38,544 nucleotides of DNA from Falciphora oryzae (taxonomy: Eukaryota > Ascomycota > Sordariomycetes > Magnaporthales > Magnaporthaceae): positions 1-38,544 of the forward strand of contig JNVV01000020.1 in NCBI GenBank assembly GCA_000733355.1. The letters run 5' to 3'. Below the pieces are notes generated by a model that saw only the letters and a program-made list of their open reading frames with translations, was not told the origin of the DNA and made no database searches. How positions within the stretch are numbered: position 1 is the first letter of the stretch; each line of letters begins with the position of its first letter. Below are positions 3,193 to 19,648 of this stretch, piece by piece. Both the position numbers and the translations under genes were made by a program.

Positions 3193-3208
3193 AATAATGT
3201 TTTATATA
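3193..3208. repeat. 16-bp target-site duplication, left copy
   Basis: AATAATGTTTTATATA at 3193-3208 is repeated exactly at 14348-14363, directly outside the point where the truncated LINE copy stops matching ORF2. It brackets both LINE copies. The last bases merge with the (TA)n tail, so the exact inner edge is uncertain by a few bases. Confidence 0.8.
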
Positions 3209-3219
3209 TATATATATAT
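3203..3219. repeat. (TA)n run, 3' tail of LINE copy 1
   Basis: An uninterrupted TA run, followed on the + strand by TTCTTATTTAG. An equivalent run stands at 10663-10673 at the same place in copy 2, so it is a feature of the LINE 3' end rather than of the target. Confidence 0.7.
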
Positions 3220-3953
3220 TCTTATTTAGTTATACTCCGTTCTATCTAATTAAACCTCGGTCCCTCTTCTAGTGTACATGTAAAAACCCTTAGCGGCGGG
3301 TCGCTAACGGCCCGCCTCCTGGGCGGAAAAACCATATCTGCTCTTCGTATACGGTGCTTCCTATGTTAAACAGTGCTGCCGTCTGCTTTTCTTCACACGC
3401 CTGCTTTTTAAAGGTCTCTGCGCGAAAGCGTCCTTGTGATTGTGGGTAACTTAAGGAAAAAGGTGGACTCAAGGAAAAAGGTAATTGTAATGTAGTAACG
3501 CAAAGAAATCGTGCCGTGGCCGGGGCGTTGCCGCCTCGCCCTCTCCTCCGGGCTAAGCGGCGCTATTAGGGCTATCCCCTCATTGGTTAACAGCTGTTAC
3601 CCCGAAGTGACCGGGCCGCTAGCGGCCCGCTTTTATCTCCCGGTGTGTTTGTTTGTTGTATTTGTAATTCGGGGTAAATCACCTTCCTCGGCCGAAGTAG
3701 CCGGTTCCCAAACGGTGCTTTTGGCTCCACCTCTAAAGGTCTCCTCCGTAATTGCGGGTCGGTTCCGGCTTTGTGGCTTGCCTTGTATCACGCTATTAGC
3801 CATCGTTTTTATCTTCGTAGGTCTCGGGCCCGGTGTGGCTTCTCGCTATGTCATCAACGGTGCTGGTCGTGCCTTCCGGATCTATCACCTTTCTTCCGCC
3901 TTCCTCCTACGGCCCGGTATCGCCCCGCCTTCCCTACCTACAAATAGGTCTCC
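3220..3953 (+). other. LINE 3' region and leader of the antisense gene, copy 1
   Basis: Positions 3255-3440 match 10700-10890 of copy 2 at nucleotide level (shared blocks ACCTCGGT, AAAAACC, CTTCGTATACGGT), but no reading frame is kept on the + strand, so I take it as non-coding: the 3' UTR of the LINE and the 5' leader or promoter region of the antisense gene. 3500-3950 is pyrimidine-rich on the + strand. Open stretches here have no counterpart in copy 2. Confidence 0.5.
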
Positions 3954-5352
3954 TTCCTCCAGGTCTTTTTCCTTCCCTTCCTTCCTTCTTCACCCTCACT
4001 ACCACCACCACTACCGCACCTGCCACCGCTTTCCTGCACGCGATCGTACCTTTACCTTACCGGTATCTCCTCTTCTTCGATCTTTTCTTTCGGCTCCTCC
4101 ACCATATCTACCGCGCCTATCTCTCCGCGTCCAAACGACAGCGGCGACGAAGTCCCCGAATCCGTCAATCCTCGCCTCAAAGCCGTAAACGTTCCTCTCC
4201 CGCTTCACTCACGCTTGCGCTCCTCACGCTAACTCCGCTGTTTTTATAGCCGTATCGCCTCTACCATCAGGTAAAATACAGCGCCGCTTTAAAAGTTCCC
4301 TCAAATCACGTCTCATACTCGCAGCTGAAATCGTACGTTACCGCTCCTCCTCCGGCTCTTTTCCCCCGCCGTTCTGCTAACTTTTCTCTCAGTCCCAAAG
4401 TTACCATCTATATCGGTTGCCTTCAGCGCTTAGCGAACGGCACCGAAAATGCCGGCGCCATCCGGGCTTACAGCTACCGATCAAATACGTCCCTCTTCCG
4501 CTCCGTTCCCTACTCGGTACTAACCTTCTTTTCGTAAACACCAAAGGTTTAACTTGCGCTCCTTATAGCGCTTCTCGCGGCTCCTACCAACAAGTAAATT
4601 CTCCTCCTCCATTCCCTTCTCTTCCCGATTCCGTTTCGCTAACGACCCTATAGCCTCCCGTCGGAATTAAGGAAGCCGTCGCCTATATGCTTAAAGCGCA
4701 CACCAAATATATCTCTATCCTACCCAAAAATAAAGCTGCCTTCGACGTCGCGTTTCCCGCCGAGGAAACTCGTGCTCGGATTTGTCCCGCCTTTATTCCG
4801 CCCTAATTCCGGCGTTCCTTTAACTAACCCTAGTTATCTATTTGTAACAAAAAGCTCACAACGTCCTAATTAACGCCATCGCCGCCTACTCGCGCGCTGC
4901 GAAGGACTTTAGCAAACGTTCCGGTATCCCTTCTAATTCGGGTTCTTCCCGTCCCTTTCCGTTTCCTATCGGCTTAAGCAATATCCTCTCCTCCGTTACC
5001 GGTAATAGCTCTGCTTTGGTCCGGTCCCCGTCCGGCAACATAATTCCTCCAACTCAAGCTCTTTCTAGCTGGGCTTCCGCCCTAGTCTCCCAATAGGATC
5101 AATCCAATCGTTTAAAAATGGAAAAGTTGGCTTTAAAACGTGCCAAATTCCGCGTACGTCCCCTCGTTTCGCTTCTTTTCCGTTCTTATTCCAGCCCGCT
5201 AACCGTTCTTCCTCTGCCAGTTCGAAATGCTCGATAAAAAGTCGAAGGTCCCCGATACCTTTAATAAATACCTTCGGGATACCCGGGAAAAAGTTACTAA
5301 TAAAATATCTCGGGATATAAACGACGAAGGTAATAATAACGGCGATAAGTAA
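3954..5352 (+). pseudogene. Antisense accessory gene inside the LINE, copy 1, intron-bearing
   Basis: I do not recognise this protein. Exon 1 ends ...NPRLKA at 4184. Introns read by eye: 4185-4249, 4333-4392, about 4489-4533, 4594-4653, a degraded one near 4795-4837, and 5154-5220; most have GT, CTAAC and AG. The last exon (5221-5352) ends IRD-like, ISRDINDEGNNNGDK, then TAA. Conserved with copy 2: YRLY..Q..Y..A.KVP.N near 4252-4310, LANG....GA.R near 4430-4466, NTKGLTC, a KRSGIPS block near 4918-4938, LVRSPSGN near 5018-5041, and MEKLA.KRAK near 5118-5147. The 5' end is uncertain; frame 3954-4184 is open but no Met is clear. Stops such as S*D near 5095 fit Gln loss. It runs tail-to-tail with ORF2, about 50 bp apart. 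The N-terminal part is Ser/Pro-rich. Confidence 0.72.
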
Positions 5353-5399
5353 TAGCTTCGTTTCTAATGCGGCCCAATCCCTATCCTGGTTCTATTTTT

Positions 5400-8300
5400 C
5401 CTCCGTCCTTTTTCCTTAGTGCTTTCGTTCGGCGTTCTTCTTCATACGGCTTCCGGTAAATATTCTAATCCGGCTTAGTAGCGCTCTATCTATCGCGCTA
5501 CCGCTTTTCTCTCCCTTTCAATACGCTCTAGCTTTTTCGCTGCCCTAAAGTCTAATAATCTCCCTATACGAAACATCATCTTTAATACGATCGCGTATAT
5601 TTTTTCGCCTTTTTCCCACATCTCGAAATATGCTCTTCGGCCTAAAACCAAATCCAAACCGGTACCAATCCGCGTCCAATCCCATCTAGCACATTATATT
5701 AACACGTACCATACTATTTCTTTCTGCCCGCTCCCGCACTCGCACAAAGGCGTTACCGCGTCGGGTACATTCCTACTAAAAAGGAAGGCATTTAATCCTA
5801 ATTTCTCCGTACGAATCTAAATTGCCAAAAAGCTGTAAGTTTTTAGCAACTTTTCGTAATACTCCAAAACTTCCTCTATAAACTGGGCGTCGTCGGCGGG
5901 GCAAATACCCCGGTATCGGTTCGCCCTCCTAACGGTCTCGGCCGCGCTCTTCACTCTAAACTTCCACTCAAAAGTAACGTTTGGGTTCCAATGCCTTTTG
6001 TACTTATTACGTAGCTTCCCGTTATTTTCAAAGCTCAGCTCGCGCCGGCGTAATTCCGGTTCTATATCGTTCCTATCCCATTTTATTGCCCATTCTCTTT
6101 TCGCAATCCCGCTATATAGGTGCGGTCTTCTTCTAAATTGCCTAAACCCATTAAATCGGAGCCACTCCGCTACCCTCCCGGTAGCTTTGTTCACTATTTC
6201 CGTCATCCCAATATCTCCCCATCTCTTTTCAATATTAAACACCCTCTCGTTCAAATATAAATCCAGGGGTAGGGTGTAAGTCTCTATTTCCAAATGCGCT
6301 AAAAATGTCGCTCGGTATACCCCCGCCACCACCCTCAAACAGGCCCGCTATTCCTTCGCAAGCTTTTTAGTAACGCCTCGGGGCCGTCCCTTAACCTCTA
6401 TTAGTAAGTGGAACGCCGTTGCTCCATACACCAGCGCGCTACGGCATACCACCGCGTACAATTATCTTGCTTTAGCGAGGCTACTCCCCCACGTTACCGC
6501 CGCGAATTTGGTTAGGGCCAGCTATTATCGCTCTTATTTGCCTCTAACCTTCTCCAAATGTGCCTGGAAGTTCAATCTTCGGTCGAGCCAAACCCCAAAG
6601 AATCTTGCAAACTCGTTTAATGCAACCTCGTTGTTACCTAGCCGAACCCGGAACGGGTTCGGCGTTTTAAAGAAATAGATCAGCTCCGTTTTTGCTGCGT
6701 TAAAAGACATTCCTGTTTTAGCTGCCCATTTTTGGCATACTTCCCACGCGCGTGTAAAAAGGTGGCACGTTTCCGCCATAGTCCCGGCTGTAGCCAAAAG
6801 GTTTATATCGTCGGCGAAGCCGACGACCGTAATTCCCGGTATCGCTTCCAGCTCTTTATATAATAACGCGATATAAAGGATAAATAAAATAAATAATAAG
6901 GGCGACCCCTAAAATACTCCCGCGTGAACTGGGATTGTTACTAACGTATCTCCATCGAACCGGAAACGTGCCGTCCTCCCTATAAGCCAGCTTCTAATCC
7001 ATCTTACTATCTCTAATAGGAACCCCTATTTTCTTAATATATCCAAAAGCCTCACGTAGTTCACGCTATCAAAAGCGCCTAAAAGGTCCAGCTGCAATAA
7101 CGATACGGTAGCGCCATAGTTCCACGCTATAATCACCGACTCCGTAACTTATCGGATTGCCAATTCTATACTCCGGTTAGCTCTATTTCCCATTTGGCCG
7201 TCGGGTAAAAGTCCCCTCGCTTCCGCCTCGGTAGCGATGTTCTATCCCACAATAGCTTCAAAAACTTTCGAAATCAAAAATAAAAGTGCTATCAGTCTCC
7301 AGCCCCCTGCCGTTTTCCTCTCCGCAACTATTTTTTCGGGCTTAAGGATCACAACCGTAAGTGCTTCCCGAAACCGCTTCGGGAAATACTCGAATTCGAA
7401 ACTAGCGTTTGCCAGCTTTAATAATACCTGCCAGCAAGGTTCGCCGCACGCTTTTAACAGTCCATTCGGTAAGTTGTCAGGCCCTAGGGCTTTCCAATTC
7501 CTAACCCGGAACAGGACTTAATGCACCGCGCTACCGTCCTCGTCCACGCTATTATCCATTTCGAAAGCGTTTTCGAACGTCTCGTTTTCGAACGATATGT
7601 TTTCGATATCGGAAAGGTCTGCAAGGGGGTTAGGGTAAAATTTGGTCGCTAGGATACTCGCTTTTTCTTCGTATATATTTGCCTCCCCCAGTCCTAGCCC
7701 GGGGCGGGCTAGGTCTAGTAGCCTGGTGGGGTCTCGCCTACGGTAGCTCCTCAATCTTACCCACCTTTCGACGTTCCAAAACGTAGCCTCGCGATTTTTA
7801 AATATATCCTTAATAAACCTTTTCCAATATGCGTTTACGGCCTTCCTTTTTTCCTTAATAAAGGCCTTATCTGCCTCCTTTAATTTATCGTGGCTTGCTT
7901 ATATCTTATCCCGGGTGTATTCGCGCCGGCACCGCTTCGTTTCCTTTAACAATGCCGTCAGCTTAATCGTCCAATAGGGTGCTAGTTTAAACTTGGTTGC
8001 CGCCTTACGCCTCGGTGCCAGTTCGTCTGCGATCCTAATAAGCTATTCTATCAGCGAGTCAACGGCTTCGTCTAGTTCCTCCTCTATGGTAATATCGCCT
8101 ATTTAAATAAATTGTTCCGCGAGGTACAAAGCCTTCCTCTTATCGTTTTTTGGGTCGGTATCAACCTCCTTCCATACCCAGCCTTCGGCTTAGCGCTGCC
8201 GGAGCGGTTCCTATCCTATTTCGATCCTAATCACTTATAGGTAATGGTCGGACCCTCTTATCTTTAAATCTTTTCCTTTGTAATAAACGACCAACGAGTC

Positions 8301-8890
8301 TAAAACCCAAACGTAATCTATCGTACTTTCCCTTTCCCCTCTTCGTTCTCTTATAACCTCGCCGTATGGCGTAGCGAGTTCGAAACTCCACCGTCTCGCT
8401 AGCGTTAGAAGTGTTTCAGCTTTTTCGTCTCTTTTATTATATATATCCCACATTAGGTAGTAAAGGTTAAAATCCCCCACTAGCACGGCGTACTGCCGGG
8501 GTAAGTACGTAATAATCTTTTAAAATGGTATATTCCATACTCCTAAGGCTCTAAGGTTTGGTAAATATATCGAATAAATGTCTATACTTCCAACTAGTAT
8601 CTGTAATGTAATTGCTGCCTAGTCATATCCGCTCCGGCTCGACCACGAAGCGGGGTCGAGTTTTTAATGTACGTATAACGCCGCGTTAAACCTTATATTC
8701 GCTTGGTGGTATACTACTTCGTACTAGCATCCTGCTAGCTTTTTAAAATCTCCGTGCCTATCCAGCTCCGGTTCCTAGATAGCAATTATATCGTACTGTT
8801 TTCTGCTAAAAAGGGGGATATCTCCCCGGCTATTGCCCTTCTCCATATTCCAATATAATATAAAAATTACTATAAGGATTCGGCGGCTCG
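5400..8890 (-). pseudogene. LINE ORF2: endonuclease and reverse transcriptase, copy 1
   Basis: Makes nicked-target-primed cDNA in non-LTR elements. Seen from the 5' end: APE-type endonuclease with QEP-like *EPELDRHGDF near 8760, LVGDFN at 8465-8485, STIDYVW near 8320 and SDHYL near 8240; reverse transcriptase with LQLDLLGAFDSVNY near 7090 (motif A) and VVGFADDINLLATAG near 6790-6830 (motif C, FADD intact); then thumb-like AKTELIYF near 6680 and a C-terminal part with EKLGLNAFLF near 5780 and CECGSG near 5740. No RNase H domain is visible between thumb and C-terminus, where many Tad elements have one. Numerous TAA/TAG stops mark Gln or Trp losses. The C-terminus is Lys/Arg-rich and its stop is not certain. 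Confidence 0.85.
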
Positions 8891-10590
8891 TTGCTAGCTT
8901 CCAAAAGTAACTACGCTCGTTATAATCGGGGTCGGTTCGGATAAAAAAAGGGGGAAGTTCATTTATTTTGCCGTAGCCGCTTGTATCTGTTCGTCCGTGG
9001 TTACTAAGGGCCTTGATAACGGGGAGCTATTTCTAACCCCCGTTCTCATTATAATTTGCTAATACCGGGCGCCCGCCGCCGGTAGCGGCCTAATAAATAT
9101 CCGGCCCCTTAATAATATCGATCCCGGGGGTTTCCCTACCGGTCGTCTTCCCGTTAGCGTCGGTGTTATTTCTTTTTTTCCGTCTATTCTTTATCTTTTG
9201 TTAGGGCTCGCTCCCGCTCCGATACCGGCTATTATGCGATTTTAAAATAACGGAATGTTCGTTGTTTAACTAGCCCTAAACCCTCCGGTTTCCAAAGCGA
9301 ACCTCTTTAGCCTGTTTTTATACGCCTCCCTAGCTCTTTTAATTACTTATTACGCGGTGCCGCAGCTCCGGCGGAACGCCGGGTACGGTCCGTCGCAATT
9401 TACGCACTTCGGCCTCTCCGCCGCTTATTTAGGGTATACCGCGCACTCCGTTTCGCCCCTTTAGTGCTTCGGCCCGGTACAATAGGGGCACCGGCTCGGC
9501 TTATAGCAAAACTTTTATTTATATCCCCACTAGTAGCAATTAAAGCATTAGGTTGCCTTCGATTTTAAAGCGTATAATTCGCAATTATAAATTTCCGCCC
9601 GGTATACAACTCCTTAAATGCAGCACAAATCCGCTACCGACGCGTTCCCAATTTTAGCCAGCACGATCGCGTATCCTATATTATTCCTTAAAGGCTAAAC
9701 GTAAACCAACCGTATGTTCGCGTTTTTATTTTCAACGTTTAAGGCTGCCGTCAGTTCTTTTAAGTCCGTAAGGAAAGTTCCCATTTTAAAGCCTCGAATT
9801 ACTATGTTTACGGTTCGTTCCCGTAACTAAACCTAGTCCCCGAATACGGTTTTAATCCACGCCGTCCTTTTTTTATATTCTTCCGCGCTATTTGTAAATG
9901 TAACCACCACGTTACCGCTCGGTAGGGTACGTATACCCCTCGGTCCGTCCCCGACGTAGGTCCGGACTGCTTGCAATATCTCTTCGTATAATCTGCCCTT
10001 TAGCGGAAAGGGCATTTCTCCCACGGCAATCGTAACTTTTCGCTCCAATTTAGCCGGGATAAATCGGGGTGGGGGGGGGAAGGTGTTTTATCGGGGGGGG
10101 TTTGGTTCGGGTGCGTTCCGTCCCCCGGGCGCTAACCTTTGGAACGCTGCGGCGGCGTAAGACTTTTTGCTGTTATCGGCGAAAGCGTTCTTTACTTCGG
10201 TAAAAATATCGATTTTAAACGTTTCAAAGGTTTCTGTCGTGATCGGTCCGTCTTTGGCTGCGTCGCGCTAGCGCGCCGCCACCGTTTCGGTTTCGGTATT
10301 AATCAGCTCTCTAATCAACTGCAAAACTTCCGGCAACTTGCCACGAATCACAAAGGGCTCCAGTTTGTTTTTGATTTCCAATAGGTTAGTTTCCTAGCGA
10401 TTGCGATACGGTCCCGGGTCGGGGGAGGTCCTGCTTCCCGACGCGCCCTAAAGCGCGTCGGGCGGGTCGTTCGCGAATGCGTATCGGCTAGCCGCGAGGC
10501 CAAAATCGACTTCCATCGATTCCAACCCCGCGCCGCCGGCGCGCGCCACCTGCGGCATCGGCTCGGGGGGGAGTCGGATGCGTAGATTCC
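8890..10590 (-). pseudogene. LINE ORF1: gag-like RNA-binding protein, copy 1
   Basis: ORF1 proteins of Tad-type LINEs bind the element RNA. On the - strand the reading from near 10560 gives MPQVARAGGAGLESMEV, then a helical part (LLEIKNKLEPFVIRGKLPEV near 10375-10315), KKSYAAAAFQ near 10140-10170, a folded domain at 10048-9833 (KVTIAVGEMPFPLKGR ... GNVVVTFTNSAEEYKKR) and a Cys-rich part near 9490-9370 with CPYC, H and C, then CVNC, consistent with CCHC knuckles. Stops replace Gln at several sites (DAL*GASG, AR*RD). The tail to about 8890 is Pro/Arg-rich. The start is approximate. Confidence 0.75.
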
Positions 10591-10662
10591 GATTCTAAAG
10601 TCAGATTTGGATTATCTCGAAGGGCTAACCGGATACGCGTCTGCAAAGGTCCAACCAGCGTT

Positions 10663-10673
10663 ATATATATATA
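10663..10673. repeat. (TA)n run at the 3' tail of LINE copy 2
   Basis: TATATATATAT followed by TCATAC on the + strand, aligned with the TA run at 3203-3219. It also marks the junction with the 5' end of copy 1. Confidence 0.65.
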
Positions 10674-10692
10674 TTCATACTACCGTTATGTC

Positions 10693-10700
10693 TATATAAG
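10693..10700 (+). promoter_or_regulatory. Possible TATA box for the antisense gene, copy 2
   Basis: TATATAAG followed by ACCTCGGTGCC, with the matching place in copy 1 (near 3245) reading TATCTAATTAAACCTCGG. The position is far upstream of the proposed start at 11513, so an untranslated leader or an upstream intron would be needed. Inference only. Confidence 0.3.
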
Positions 10701-11512
10701 ACCTCGGTGCCTCTACTATGTAGTATTTACATATAAAAAACCCTTAAACTCGTCCTCGGGTGCGTGTCGCCCCCGCTCCGGAGCCTGGGAGTAAAAACCA
10801 TGTCTGCTTTTCGTATACGGTCCTGCTATATTGAACAGTGGTACCGTCTGCTTGTCTTTAAGCGACTGCTCGTAAGGGTTCCGTCGTGGAAGCGTCCTTA
10901 TAATCAATGGAACAAAAGGAAAGTACGTAAGGGAATAAGGGTGTGTTGCGCCGGGGCAGCGCCTCGGTGCCGGGTTTCGCCCTCGTAGCGAAACGGCTGT
11001 GTTAGTACTCGTATTATGGCGTTCTGGTGTGGCTTTTCCGCGTGAGTTGGCCCGGCTCTGCTCCGGGTCCCAGCCGCGGGCGGGCCCTCCGGGTCTGGCG
11101 TTTTGCTTCGTAACTTTAGGTAATTCAGCTTTTGGTGGGTGCCCGCTTCCGGGGCCGTTGTTTCGCGTGCGGTTCGGGTCCGCCTTTATGGCTTGCATTT
11201 AATTTTTTTGTTGGTTGCTTCCCTTTTTTTGGATCGCGTCATTTGGGTGACTTTTTTTTATTGCTGCGTTGTTATGCGTTGTGGTTTTTGGTGGTAACTT
11301 CCTTTTGTTTCCTTCCGGATCCGGGTTTCCACCGGCTTTCCTTTTCCCAGCTACAAAAGGCCCTTTTTCCTTCCTTTTTCTTTCCCTTTCGCTTTTTTTT
11401 TACCACCATTTCCGGTCCTGCCTTTCTGCCCGCGCTTCCTTTTCTCCTGCCTGCATTTAGGTTCCTGCTCGCTCGCGCTTCGTTTCCCTTCCGTTTCCTG
11501 TTTTCCTGCAGC
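10701..11512 (+). other. LINE 3' region and leader of the antisense gene, copy 2
   Basis: The first 190 bp align with 3255-3440 in copy 1 without a kept reading frame. The remainder to 11512 is T/G-rich with a long pyrimidine run that ends TTTTCCTGCAG just before the proposed start, which resembles an intron 3' end. Open frames here do not match copy 1 and are left out. Confidence 0.45.
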
Positions 11513-12931
11513 ATAGCTCCCAAGGATAAAGCTCCCAAATCTCCCCGCGGTGGTGGTGGTAGCGGTCGCGGTAGCAATCCCGGTAGCGGAGCCACGGGCG
11601 GTAGCCGCGCCGCTCCCGCCGCTGTAGCTAATGGCAATGGTGGTGGTAGTAGTGGCAGTGGCAGTCGTCCTCGCAGTCGCCCTCCGTCTGCGGACGAGAA
11701 CGACGGTAGCGGCTCAAGCGACGGCGGCTCGGGCGACGGCGTCCAGGACCCTCGTGTTAAAGCTGTAAGTGCGGCTCTGCTCCGTTCCTTTCCCGGTTTT
11801 GTAGCTAACTTCCTTTTTTCCTCCCAGCTTTACCGCCTTTACAGTTAATCGGAGTATTTGCCGGCGGTTAAGGTCCCCGATAACTGCGTTTTTTACGACG
11901 ATATGGTGTATGTTTGCCGCCCCGTTGTCCTTCCTATTCCGCTTCGCTAACTTCCTAATCTTTCGTGTAAAATGTGCGTTGGTTGTTTTTAGCGTTTCGC
12001 TAACGGCATCGACGGTGCCGGTGCTGTGCGCTGGTGCTACTACAAGGTTTGTGTGTAGCGCTTCTTATTTTGCTTTTTTCCGCTCCGTTTCCGGTTTTGC
12101 TAACATAGTAATTCCAGCTACCAAAGGCCTCACCTGTGTAGGTTGCATTTAGTTGTATGGTGCTTGCGTTTAAATTAGTCGCTCCCTTTTTGGTATCCGC
12201 TTGCGATTTCGTCGCTAACGTTTCGTTCCCGTCGCGGTAGCCTCCTACTAGTTCCGAAAACCAGGTTGCCGCTGTTTTTCGTGCCCACTATCGCTATATG
12301 CAGTCCCTGCCCAAAATTAGTGCGGACCGCGATATTGCGTTTGCGGATGTCCATACTGCTGCTAAAATGTGTACCGCCTTTGTTCCAGGCCGCTATTTGT
12401 CCTGTCCTGACATTTTTTTTCATTCCAGGCTCGCTATACCGGTTTGGAGCATGCGATCGCCGGGTATTGCCGTATTTCGAAGGACATTTTTAAGCGGTCC
12501 GGTATTCCTTCCGGCGCCGGGTTTAGCCGCTCGTTCCCTGCCAGTTTTGGGAATGCCTTCGCTGCTGTGGCTGCTTTTGGTGGTTCGGGTTTAGTCCGTT
12601 CCCCCTCCGGTAATATGGTGCCCCCGGGCTAAGCTATATCGGGCTGGGCCGAAAGGATCGTTGCTAAGTGGAGCACGGAAAATCGCACTCGGATGGAAAA
12701 GCTGGCTTTTAAACGGGCTAAAATACGGGTGGGTGTTTGTTTTTTCGCTTTTGCTGTTCGCTTTTAGTCCGCTAATTCCACGGTATCTTTTAGGTTTCCT
12801 TTCGGCAAAACGTTACCGAGGACGTTTTCGACAAGATATTATCGGAATGCCAAAAGGACGTTTTTAATGAAATAAAGCGGGATATGAACGATAATGGCCT
12901 CCGTCGTCGTCCTTTTGCCAACCCCCTTTAG
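11513..12931 (+). pseudogene. Antisense accessory gene inside the LINE, copy 2, intron-bearing
   Basis: Homologue of the gene at 3954-5352. Exon 1 begins ATA-GCT-CCC (11513), probably a former ATG changed by RIP, giving (M)APKDKAPKSPRGG and a Gly/Ser-rich disordered part to DPRVKA (11764). Introns: 11765-11827, 11908-about 11964, 12047-12117, 12168-12240, 12382-12428 and 12729-12793; all begin GT, most have CTAAC or CTGAC and end AG, and they fall at the same places as in copy 1. Exons keep YRLY, VKVPDN, F*RFANGIDGAGAVR, ATKGLTC, SLPK, KDIFKRSGIPS, LVRSPSGN, EKLAFKRAKIR, and the C-terminal DVFNEIKRDMNDNG. Stops are few (Y S*S, CF*RF, PPG*A) and sit where copy 1 has Gln or Trp-like codons. The protein is not recognised; about 330 residues. 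Tail-to-tail with ORF2, about 100 bp apart. Confidence 0.75.
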
Positions 12932-13034
12932 TAGTTTCTTTGGTTTTCCCCCTATAGCGGCTCGGTTGCGTGGCGTCGGTATTTGCGTGGTTTTTTTTTC
13001 CTTTTTGCTTTTCGGGTATAATGCTTTCGTTTGC

Positions 13035-14347
13035 TTTTTTATGGTCTTTTTTGGTTCGGTTCGTTTTCGGCTCGGTAGCGTTGCTTTTCCTTTTTTCTCC
13101 TTATGCGTTCCTTTTTTGCCTTTTTAGCCGCCCTAAAATTTAATAATCTTTTTGTGCGAAATATTATGCGTGCCACTTTTTTAAACGGTGTGCCCCCTGT
13201 TTTTTACAACTCGAAGTACGTTTTCCGGCTGTTTGTTTGCGCTAGCCCGGTGCTTTCCCGCTGCCTGTTTTATCGGGCGCATTAGGTTAATACGTGCCAC
13301 GCTATTTCCTTTTATCCGCTGCTACATTCGCATAGTGGCGTCGCCGCGTCGGGTACGCCTTTGCTGAATAGGAACGAGTTTAGCCCTAGTTTTTCCGTTT
13401 TAATTTGGATTGCCACCGAGTTATGTGCTTTTGGCATCCTTTCGTGGTATTCGACCATTTTTTCCGTAAATAGGGGGTTGTCCGCTAGGCACGCGGTCCT
13501 GTACCGGTTCGCTTTCCTCGCTGTTGCCGTCGTATTGGCCATTTTTAATTTCCATTCCATTGTTACGTTAGGGTTCCAGCGCCTTGCGTGTTTGTGTTTG
13601 GATTTCCAATCCTTTCCGTAAGGGACGGGTGCTCGTCTCGGTTTTGGCGCTGTTTCGGGCCGGTCCTATCGTGTTGCCCACTTTTTTTTCGCTTGTCCGC
13701 TTTGGGGGTAGGGCCTTTTTTTTCGTTTTTTGTAGCTAAATTTTTGGAAACGGTCCGTTACTTTCGCTATCATTTCGTTAATGCGCTGCGTTATCCCGGT
13801 TTTTTCCCATTTGTTTTCCGTATTTATAACCCTTTCGTTTAAGTATAAGTCCAAGGGCGGCACGTGGGTTTCTGTTTCGAGGTGTGCCAGCGAGGTTGCT
13901 TTGTAAGCTCCAGCCACCACTTTAAAACATGCTTTTTGTTTTTTCGCCATTTCTTTGGCTGCGCCCCGGGGCCGACCTCGGGGTTCCGTTGGTAGGTGGT
14001 AGGCTGCCGCTCCATAAGCCAATGCATTGCGGCATACGACCGCGTACAGCTGCCTCGCGCGTGCGAGGCTGCTTCCCCACGTTGCCGCCGCGAGTTTTAT
14101 TACCGCAAGCTGCTGTCTTTCTTGTTTGCCCCTTGCCTGCTTGGTGTGGGCGTTAAAGTTTAGCTTGTGGTTTAGCCAGATTCCCAGGAATCTCGCCGAT
14201 GGCGTTGGTTGCACCTGTGTGTTTCCGGTGCGGACCCGGGTCCGGTCCAGGGTCTTGGTAAAATGGAGCAGCTCAGTTTTGGCCGCGTTGAACGTCATTC
14301 CTGTCTTTTTTGCCCATGTCTGGCACGTGTCCCAAGCCCGTTCCAGC
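13035..14347 (-). pseudogene. LINE ORF2 C-terminal fragment, copy 2
   Basis: Starts at the truncation point with ERAWDTCQTWAKKTGM and continues FNAAKTELLHF, FLGIWLNHKLNF, ALAYGAAAYHLP, VVAGAYKATSLAHLETETH, LDLYLNERV and, near 13312-13420, EKLGLNSFLF and PLCECSSG. All align in order with copy 1. A long open frame spans 13666-14347, so this part has fewer stops than copy 1. The polymerase motifs are missing by truncation, and there is no RNase H. The end near 13035 is Lys/Arg-rich. Confidence 0.85.
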
Positions 14348-14363
14348 AATAATGTTTTATATA
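14348..14363. repeat. 16-bp target-site duplication, right copy
   Basis: AATAATGTTTTATATA, identical to 3193-3208. Joining 3192 to 14364 across one copy would restore the sequence present before the LINE insertions. Confidence 0.8.
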
Positions 14364-17787: not shown

Positions 17788-19648
17788 ACGTGGTTCACCA
17801 CCGAGTGGCGCACACCACCGAATAGCGCACCCACACCCGACCACTCGACAATCAACTCGCATACCAACCCAACAACGCCAGGAATCCATTCAAACTACTC
17901 AAAACTATATACATCGGACATTTCTACTTCTTTCTAACAAGTGCGCGCATTGTATCCGGTTTTGCCGCAAATGCCACATCGCCGACGAGTCGTCGTCGCC
18001 CTCTTTTCTTAACCCCCATAATCGCGCATTTCTTGCTGTAGCTATCCATCCAGCTCCTGCTGGTCCAGAACATCTCGTACTTCGTCGATAGTAAATAACC
18101 CTCCAAATCGGACACGTGTTTTTTTAGCCCTCCGGCGTTTGCTTAATGCCTCGTTCGCCTTTCTAAACGTGGACACCTCGGCTCGGAAAAGGGCTACCTC
18201 ATGCATTATCGCTTTCGCCCCCTTTGCAATTTAGTCCACAGCCGTATGAATAAAAGTCGAAAAGCTGCTTTAGTGATTGGAAATCCGAATTTTAATGTAT
18301 TCGGATTGCGAAATTGCTTCCCTAACTATCCGCGGCGTTTTAAAAGTCCAAGGTTCGGGGCCGTTCAAAGGCTCCCTCGGAGGAGTTAGAATCCGTAGCC
18401 TCACATCCAGCTTTTCCAAAACCAAATCCGGATTAAAAAGAGCAAAGCCAGCCCCTCGAAAGCCTCCTCGAATGTTTCCTTCGGTCATAGAATCAAAAAA
18501 TGCCGCTTTAAACGCGGAAAGGAACTCGACCTTAGTCACGTAGTTAACGTGCGACCTCATCAGGTTTTCGATTTGTCGACCGTACGCCTTTTTCATTGGG
18601 CTAAAGCACCCAACGTCAAACGGCTAAAGGAAATAAAACGAATGCGGAGGCATACAAAGCGTAATAATGTTGTGTTTTTGGCAATAAAGCTCGAAATCCG
18701 TCGAATAGTGGCTTTCGTATCCGTCCAGCACTAACAAACGATAGGGGCCCTTCGTACGCGACGCAATGTGTTTGTCGAAATACTAAATCCATTCCAGGCC
18801 GAGCTCGTTCGTAATCCACCCGTTGGAACTTATTGCGATAACCCAATTGCGTAGGAGGTCGGTTTCCGAGTACCAATTAGCTAAATGGTACTGCCCTTTA
18901 ACGATAATGAAAAAGGGGATCGCCCAACCGCAACAGTTAACCCCTTAGATAACTGTAGCCCATTCCCGGTTGCCAAGCTAAACCAGCTTTGCTTTACCAC
19001 GGCCTTCCAATATTATAATAACCATAACGGCGGCGATCATGCCCATAAAAAAGCCGGTTTCGTCGAAGTTGTAAATGTCGTCATCTAGGATGCCATATTT
19101 GGCCACAATGTTCCGCACAAAGTCGAACCATACAAAAACAAGCTTAGGATCTTCGCACTTGGCCCTTTGGTAATCGTACTTTCGAATCCAACGCGTGCCG
19201 AGCTCCGGGCGGCGCTTAACAAACCTCGCGGTCCAGTTGGTGCCGATAATGCCCGCGTCGCGTTCGGCGAACAATCGATTGGCCATATCTTCAACACTAA
19301 AAGGCCGGGGAGGAAATGCACGAAAATCCAGCTCGAAGATATATTTAACAAGCGCCTCCTCTTCGGATTCCGTTAATTTCCAACAATTGGCCATGCAATC
19401 GCGTCGAGCAGGTTGGCCGGCGCGTCGGCGACGTAATATGGATTCAGGAATGTCGTAAATTTTGGCGGCCTCTCGCACACTCAATTGTGCATTAAATTGG
19501 ATTGCCCGTATGGCAAAAACAATCCTCGCTTCTTTGGATATCGAAGCCATTTGTGGTTGTTAAGGAATTAAGGTTAAAAGTAGGAAACGCGACTGGCGAT
19601 AGAAAACGCGCCACTCGGTGGTGTGCGCCACTCGGTAGTAAACCACGT
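17788..19648 (-). mobile_element. pogo/Fot1-type DNA transposon, 1861 bp
   Basis: Terminal inverted repeats begin ACGTGGTTCACCACCGAGT at 17788 and end with the complement ACTCGGTAGTAAACCACGT at 19648. Each terminus holds two spaced copies of an ACCACCGA..nGCGCA motif, likely transposase sites. It is flanked by TA at 17786-17787 and 19649-19650, the TSD of the Tc1/mariner/pogo group. It carries one transposase gene on the - strand. Confidence 0.93.
17924..19550 (-). pseudogene. pogo/Fot1 transposase (HTH, CENP-B-like, DDE)
   Basis: Catalyses cut-and-paste transposition. Starts MASISKEARIVFAIRAI at 19550. A Psq-type HTH is seen around LSVREAAKIYDIPESILRRR (residues about 22-42), a CENP-B-like HTH around LTESEEEALVKYIFEL ... 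GTNWTARFVKRRPEL, then the DDE domain: first Asp in IYNFDETGF, second in LLVLDGYESH near 18735, third in PFDVGCFSP near 18605, preceded by L* where the family has LQ. The C-terminal part has LFNPDLVLEKL and the usual TP...P block. Stops (LV*, VI*G, WI*YF, L*PF, NH*SS) are all TAA/TAG at likely Gln or Trp; a small frame change lies near 18060. All three catalytic Asp remain. Confidence 0.92.

Follow-up and report, generated by a model that had tools for sequence, protein, structure and literature searches.

LINEs are usually described as elements with one or two ORFs, coding on one strand. The present locus raised the question of whether a LINE family also carries a gene on its opposite strand, and of what such a gene might do. 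The window analyzed here, the whole 38,544-nucleotide stretch of contig JNVV01000020.1 from Falciphora oryzae, contains two LINE copies in tandem, both on the minus strand. Along the plus strand, both copies showed the order proposed in the first-pass annotation: a (TA)n tail, a leader, a plus-strand gene, and the 3' end of ORF2 on the minus strand. The features are listed below, and the exon coordinates were assigned by alignment to reference copies.

3193 to 3208, no strand: left copy of the target-site duplication, a 16-bp direct repeat AATAATGTTTTATATA that continues into the TA tail; partner at 14348-14363
3209 to 10660 (limits approximate), minus strand: LINE copy 1 (subfamily 1), 3' end with TA tail at left; 5' limit approximate
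3222 to 4103, plus strand: leader of the copy 1 antisense gene (LINE 3' region), presumed promoter
4104 to 5352, plus strand: copy 1 antisense gene, exons 4104-4184, 4250-4336, 4427-4484, 4538-4593, 4654-4779, 4851-5153, 5221-5352
5490 to 8990 (approximate), minus strand: copy 1 ORF2, RT match 7125-7757, C-terminal match 5523-6068; 5' limit approximate
9000 to 10600 (approximate), minus strand: copy 1 ORF1 region, placed by eye, by analogy with the copy on C3
10661 to 14347, minus strand: LINE copy 2 (subfamily 2), 5'-truncated within ORF2 (at about 14348), TA tail at left
10675 to 11512, plus strand: leader of the copy 2 antisense gene, with one 123-bp repeat unit fewer than other copies
11513 to 12934, plus strand: copy 2 antisense gene, exons 11513-11764, 11828-11911, 11993-12050, 12118-12173, 12241-12366, 12429-12728, 12794-12934
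13039 to 14347, minus strand: 3' part of copy 2 ORF2, its stop 104 bp from the antisense stop
14348 to 14363, no strand: right copy of the target-site duplication, 16-bp direct repeat AATAATGTTTTATATA

The Pfam domains of ORF2 were RVT_1, Exo_endo_phos_2, and Exo_endo_phos, that is, an APE-type endonuclease and a reverse transcriptase. ORF2 was 48% identical, over 94% of the region searched, to the Neurospora crassa pol-like protein P0038, which we take to be that of Neurospora Tad. The ORF1 region showed knuckles that we recognized as CCHC-type. Judged by these similarities, the element is a Tad-like LINE. In copy 1, the first stop past the conserved C-terminus of ORF2 was found at 5490. The GLN.FLF block of ORF2 (5778-5798 in copy 1 and 13366-13386 in copy 2) lay approximately 430 bp past the gene stop in each copy, in agreement with the roughly 400 bp proposed earlier. 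A leader was present as claimed, but its length was 0.85-0.9 kb and not about 1 kb. The LINE 3' region also contained a 123-bp tandem repeat (2.1 units at 3349-3603 of locus L013), the unit number of which varied between copies.

Copy 2 had been regarded as a 5'-truncated insertion with a target-site duplication at its outer edge. The truncation and the repeat at 14348 were confirmed, but the partner of this repeat lies at 3193, so the 16-bp duplication brackets the pair of copies and not copy 2 alone. The simplest history is likely that copy 2 was inserted first and copy 1 later entered its TA tail. Elsewhere in the window, a 190-aa ORF was observed on the minus strand at 18978-19550, which, as far as we can judge, resembles the start of a DNA-transposon transposase.

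The same arrangement was then followed through the organism's own genome of 50 Mb, which gave 11 matches for subfamily 1. For subfamily 2, the 44 matches are a minimum, since they come from 40 scored candidates out of 71. In subfamily 1, the tail region was followed by the gene and by ORF2 in 11 of 11 loci, the window copy included. In subfamily 2, the tail region and the gene were present in all 30 fetched loci and continued into ORF2 in 27; the other three (L022, L024, and L039) were truncated before ORF2. The truncation point fell within the fetched stretch in eight of these 30 loci, in two of them at the same place. Target-site duplications were clear in three of nine copies examined (L014, L019, and L022, with 11, 14, and 15 bp); in window copy 2 (L012) the duplication was displaced by copy 1, and five copies gave no clear duplication. 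By eye, the insertion at L018 seemed to lie between inverted repeats, one flank resembling the reverse complement of the other.

The linkage was also examined starting from ORF2. Among 89 matches of the ORF2 C-terminus, some of which were fragments of one copy, 65 were followed within 3 kb, on the opposite strand, by a match to the gene, and 24 were not. The distance between the two matches was 356-374 bp in 48 of the 65 linked pairs. One ORF2 C-terminal match (G000:C115:11444-11722) was found within an open frame of 3908 aa, perhaps owing to masked bases. Exons 6-7 gave 116 tblastn matches in the genome, which were LINE copies where examined. The linkage count used 68 of them (the exon-6 matches and the places with exon 7 alone), and eight of the 68 had no ORF2 match; the three of these that were examined (C58, C73, and C96:39419) were LINE copies truncated before ORF2. 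A gene standing mostly alone at host loci was therefore not what this genome showed. The near-constant spacing in many copies, together with the truncated copies that are flanked by target-site duplications and carry the gene, indicated that the gene lies inside the mobilized unit and belongs to the LINE, as had been suggested from the window. These results demonstrated that a Tad-like LINE family carries a complete seven-exon antisense gene in its 3' region, which is mobilized with the LINE.

We then analyzed the gene structure. The subfamily-2 copy L018 has few mutations, and its seven exons form an uninterrupted spliced frame of 338 aa; the six introns of 62-81 bp have GT..AG ends. Exons 2-7 of L007, a subfamily-1 copy whose gene frame contains three stops, have the same phases as in L018, with lengths of 84/87, 58/58, 56/56, 126/126, 300/303, and 141/132 bp (L018/L007); exon 1 is shorter in L007 (252/81 bp). 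None of the 41 fetched copies had lost an intron, as judged by the absence of gaps of at least 60 bp. The introns would survive retrotransposition since it is the opposite strand that serves as the mobile RNA. The gene and ORF2 are arranged tail to tail without overlap, the two stops being 104 bp apart in the C3 copy and in window copy 2 and 137 bp apart in L007.

The predicted protein of approximately 280-338 aa has a charged C-terminus and, in subfamily 2, a Gly-rich N-terminus. Four cysteines are arranged as CX10CX2CX6C in both subfamilies, C-to-Y changes aside, and the uninterrupted copy L018 itself has Y in place of the first Cys. From similar motifs, this arrangement presumably binds zinc. 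The protein database gave no relative of the antisense protein among the best 7995 candidates by shared words that were scored per search, and this database does contain fungal proteins, as the ORF2 search showed. Likewise, a PDB sequence search returned no relative (best E 0.72), Pfam returned no family (best E 0.16), and scans of viral and prokaryotic contigs, collections that are not fungal, returned nothing. As neither a relative nor a Pfam domain was detectable, the biochemical role rests on the short Cys motif.

Both window copies of the gene are damaged, with one in-frame stop in copy 1 and five in copy 2, and with ATA instead of ATG at the start of both. ATA was found at the start position in 17 of 30 subfamily-2 and seven of 11 subfamily-1 copies, and ATG in the remainder. 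Across the 29 other subfamily-2 copies, 153 of 162 in-frame stops fell at L018 codons CAA, CAG, or TGG, as expected of RIP. In ten subfamily-1 copies, 30 of 44 in-frame stops were RIP-type, and 13 of the other 14 lay at positions where L007 already has a stop codon. By codon context, the in-frame stops are mostly of the RIP type. The damage in the window would fit a chance or decayed frame that is no real gene, but this explanation is contradicted by the uninterrupted copy, by the matching splice structure in two subfamilies, and by the selection described below, and we consider it scarcely credible.

To evaluate the conservation of the protein, L018 and L007 were compared over 248 codons from exon 2 onward, where they share 49% amino acid identity. 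Differences at codon positions 1, 2, and 3 numbered 104, 80, and 144 of 248 (chi-square P 4e-8). The Nei-Gojobori method gave a dN of 0.505 and a dS of 1.66, with a ratio of 0.305 that comes from a single sequence pair, one member of which has three stops, and that is distorted by RIP. The introns of the two copies were 50-69% identical, compared with 41-47% for shuffled sequences. Among distinct indels shorter than 60 bp, the subfamily-2 exons had four in-frame indels (3, 6, 9, and 36 bp) and two of 1 bp, and the introns had eight of 1-2 bp; in subfamily 1, the only such indels were five of 1 bp, all intronic. Of 15 frame-breaking indels, two were exonic and 13 intronic (P ~1e-5 by length), a contrast that is weakened because several intron indels cluster in T tracts. 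The alignments thus showed a pattern of purifying selection on the predicted protein between the two subfamilies. The earlier view that the gene is conserved as a protein was borne out by a dN/dS near 0.3, by an uninterrupted copy, and by an exon structure that both subfamilies share.

The tail-to-tail layout also suggests another product, namely that the antisense transcript itself is functional, pairing with the LINE RNA, feeding RNA silencing or transcriptional interference, and limiting copy number, with the protein being secondary. Antisense non-coding roles have been discussed for LTR elements (PMC7264820). However, the dN/dS, the conserved phases, and the frame-keeping exonic indels point to a protein, and the two reading frames do not overlap (gaps of 104 and 137 bp). 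We consider a transcript-level function quite improbable as the main explanation.

The gene had been assigned to both LINE subfamilies, which holds, but some subfamily-2 copies lack it. Fifteen of the 24 ORF2 places without the gene were examined through their 3' regions; 11 were close relatives and four were more diverged LINEs. Four of the 11 (C57, C49, C99, and C1) share a junction at which position 6004 of the C3 copy is joined to about 8030, and five (C16, C12, C69 twice, and C98) share a second junction joining about 5925 to 7734-7744; in the remaining two (C41 and C17), the sequence leaves the element near the ORF2 end. The nine copies of these two types are at different places with different flanks, and beyond ORF2 both types retain some 13 bp and a terminal stretch of about 380 bp. 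Either type retains sequence that is lost from the other, which indicates a longer ancestor and separate internal deletions. Splicing of the sense RNA as their source was ruled out, since the deletion ends are not GT..AG. In a tree of the 3' ends (49 sequences and 369 columns, with L003 dropped as too short), gene-less copies were placed amid gene-bearing ones, a placement that is weak, as it was read without support values. The 3' regions of the four diverged LINEs (C36 twice, C84, and C23) gave no match to the antisense protein below E 0.9. Three of them (L084, L085, and L086, from C36 twice and C84) belong to one more diverged LINE family, whose members have in common a repeat of at least 1.9 kb following ORF2.

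Since the gene-less types have spread, the gene is dispensable in cis. It could therefore be a passenger, which counts against a role in helping the LINE. On this reading, the gene would be a passenger or a captured host gene, useful to the host or to nobody. However, no host counterpart was found, the tblastn matches being LINE copies where examined, and the gene has apparently been kept under selection in both diverged subfamilies. We regard a gene with no role for the LINE as unlikely.

A second antisense gene was found in the same genome. A Cys-rich frame next to the C23 LINE remnant proved to be a repeat with 22 genome matches. At one of its loci (L088, C3:2426400-2432900), a Cys-rich spliced gene starts at 1993 on the plus strand, and a gypsy pol with RT, RNase H, and integrase domains, and with a chromodomain under the cut-off, ends at 3315 on the minus strand. 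The gene is thus antisense to pol and downstream of it. It lies inside an LTR-like repeat pair, a 129-bp stretch identical at C3:2427905-2428033 and 2435301-2435429 in the same orientation, and diverged relatives were found at C42, C12, C3, and C17. Like the LINE gene, the gypsy gene is antisense, downstream of pol, and spliced, and the two share C-x2-C-x6-C-x-[QK], a phase-0 intron, and then P. The gypsy gene differs in belonging to an LTR element, and beyond the motif there was no significant similarity; in the comparison of the two proteins, hhalign gave an E of 0.26 and local scores were not above those of shuffles.

Several known systems resemble this arrangement. The brtn gene (Zhao et al. 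2011) is an additional antisense gene of Boty-like gypsy LTR retrotransposons in Botrytis cinerea (PMC8365987, PMC7264820) and is classed with ORFs between pol and the 3' LTR (PMC7264820). The L088 gene has the same layout. Like the LINE gene, brtn is an antisense extra gene of a fungal retrotransposon downstream of pol, but the LINE has no LTRs, and the two were compared by layout alone. In plant gypsy elements, the antisense aORF-3R (Grande gene23, RIRE2, Retand) is conserved, lies downstream of pol, and has been suggested to have a nuclear or DNA-binding role (PMC7264820, PMC11963269). Retand has tandem repeats in its antisense-gene region (PMC7264820, PMC11963269), as LINE subfamily 2 has its 123-bp repeat. 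However, aORF-3R sits in LTR elements, and a TRP28 domain, found in 97% of Retand clusters (PMC11963269), was not found by Pfam in the LINE antisense protein. ORF0 of human LINE-1 is also an antisense ORF in a LINE, for which a weak positive effect on mobility has been suggested, but it has 71 aa and lies in the 5' UTR (PMC8554170), whereas the gene described here has seven exons, encodes 280-338 aa, and lies between ORF2 and the 3' tail. The ORF3s of bdelloid rotifers, common to LTR and Penelope-like elements, are likewise accessory ORFs in different retroelement types, but of other protein types (GDSL, DEDDy, and env-like) (PMC5408684). No LINE with a spliced antisense gene was found in the full-text literature searched, a weak piece of evidence, as several searches were broad and most subscription papers lay outside it. 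The first-pass annotation knew of no Tad-like LINE with an antisense accessory gene; this stood for LINEs in the literature searched, but the layout is known in LTR retrotransposons, including the fungal brtn. Helper genes on the reverse strand have precedents in other retrotransposons; their presence in a LINE would be new.

Reverse transcription of LINEs starts at the 3' end, so any insertion longer than approximately 2.3 kb would deliver the whole cassette. We propose, with a probability of about 0.5, that the product assists the LINE in trans as an accessory or regulatory protein, binds nucleic acid, and is expressed from the LINE's own 3' end. Its promoter would lie in the 3' terminal 0.85-0.9 kb, and 5'-truncated copies could still express the gene. 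The product may help the LINE against host silencing, for example, or in nuclear or RNP steps. It would act in trans, complement gene-less copies, and remain available after its source copy has become immobile; the truncated copies L018 and L019, with zero and one stop in the gene, fit this expectation. Action in trans and loss in derivatives would also fit a gene of the toxin or drive type, or a protein directed against rival elements that favors its carrier LINE indirectly, but we consider any such putative activity very improbable. A broader version of the helper proposal is tentative: a portable antisense helper gene, equipped with a promoter and introns of its own, might circulate between LINE and gypsy retrotransposons in fungi and be delivered whole by almost every insertion, with dead 5'-truncated copies forming a distributed supply in trans, also for gene-less derivatives.

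A conserved spliced antisense gene in a LINE would change how the 3' region of such elements is annotated, where it would otherwise be mistaken for a stray host gene. It would also mean that the emergence of antisense accessory genes is common to LTR and non-LTR retrotransposons. The finding also suggests a reason for the 3' position, namely full delivery despite 5' truncation. Finally, it makes testable the ideas that immobile copies supply a protein assisting a LINE in trans and that this protein counters fungal genome defence.
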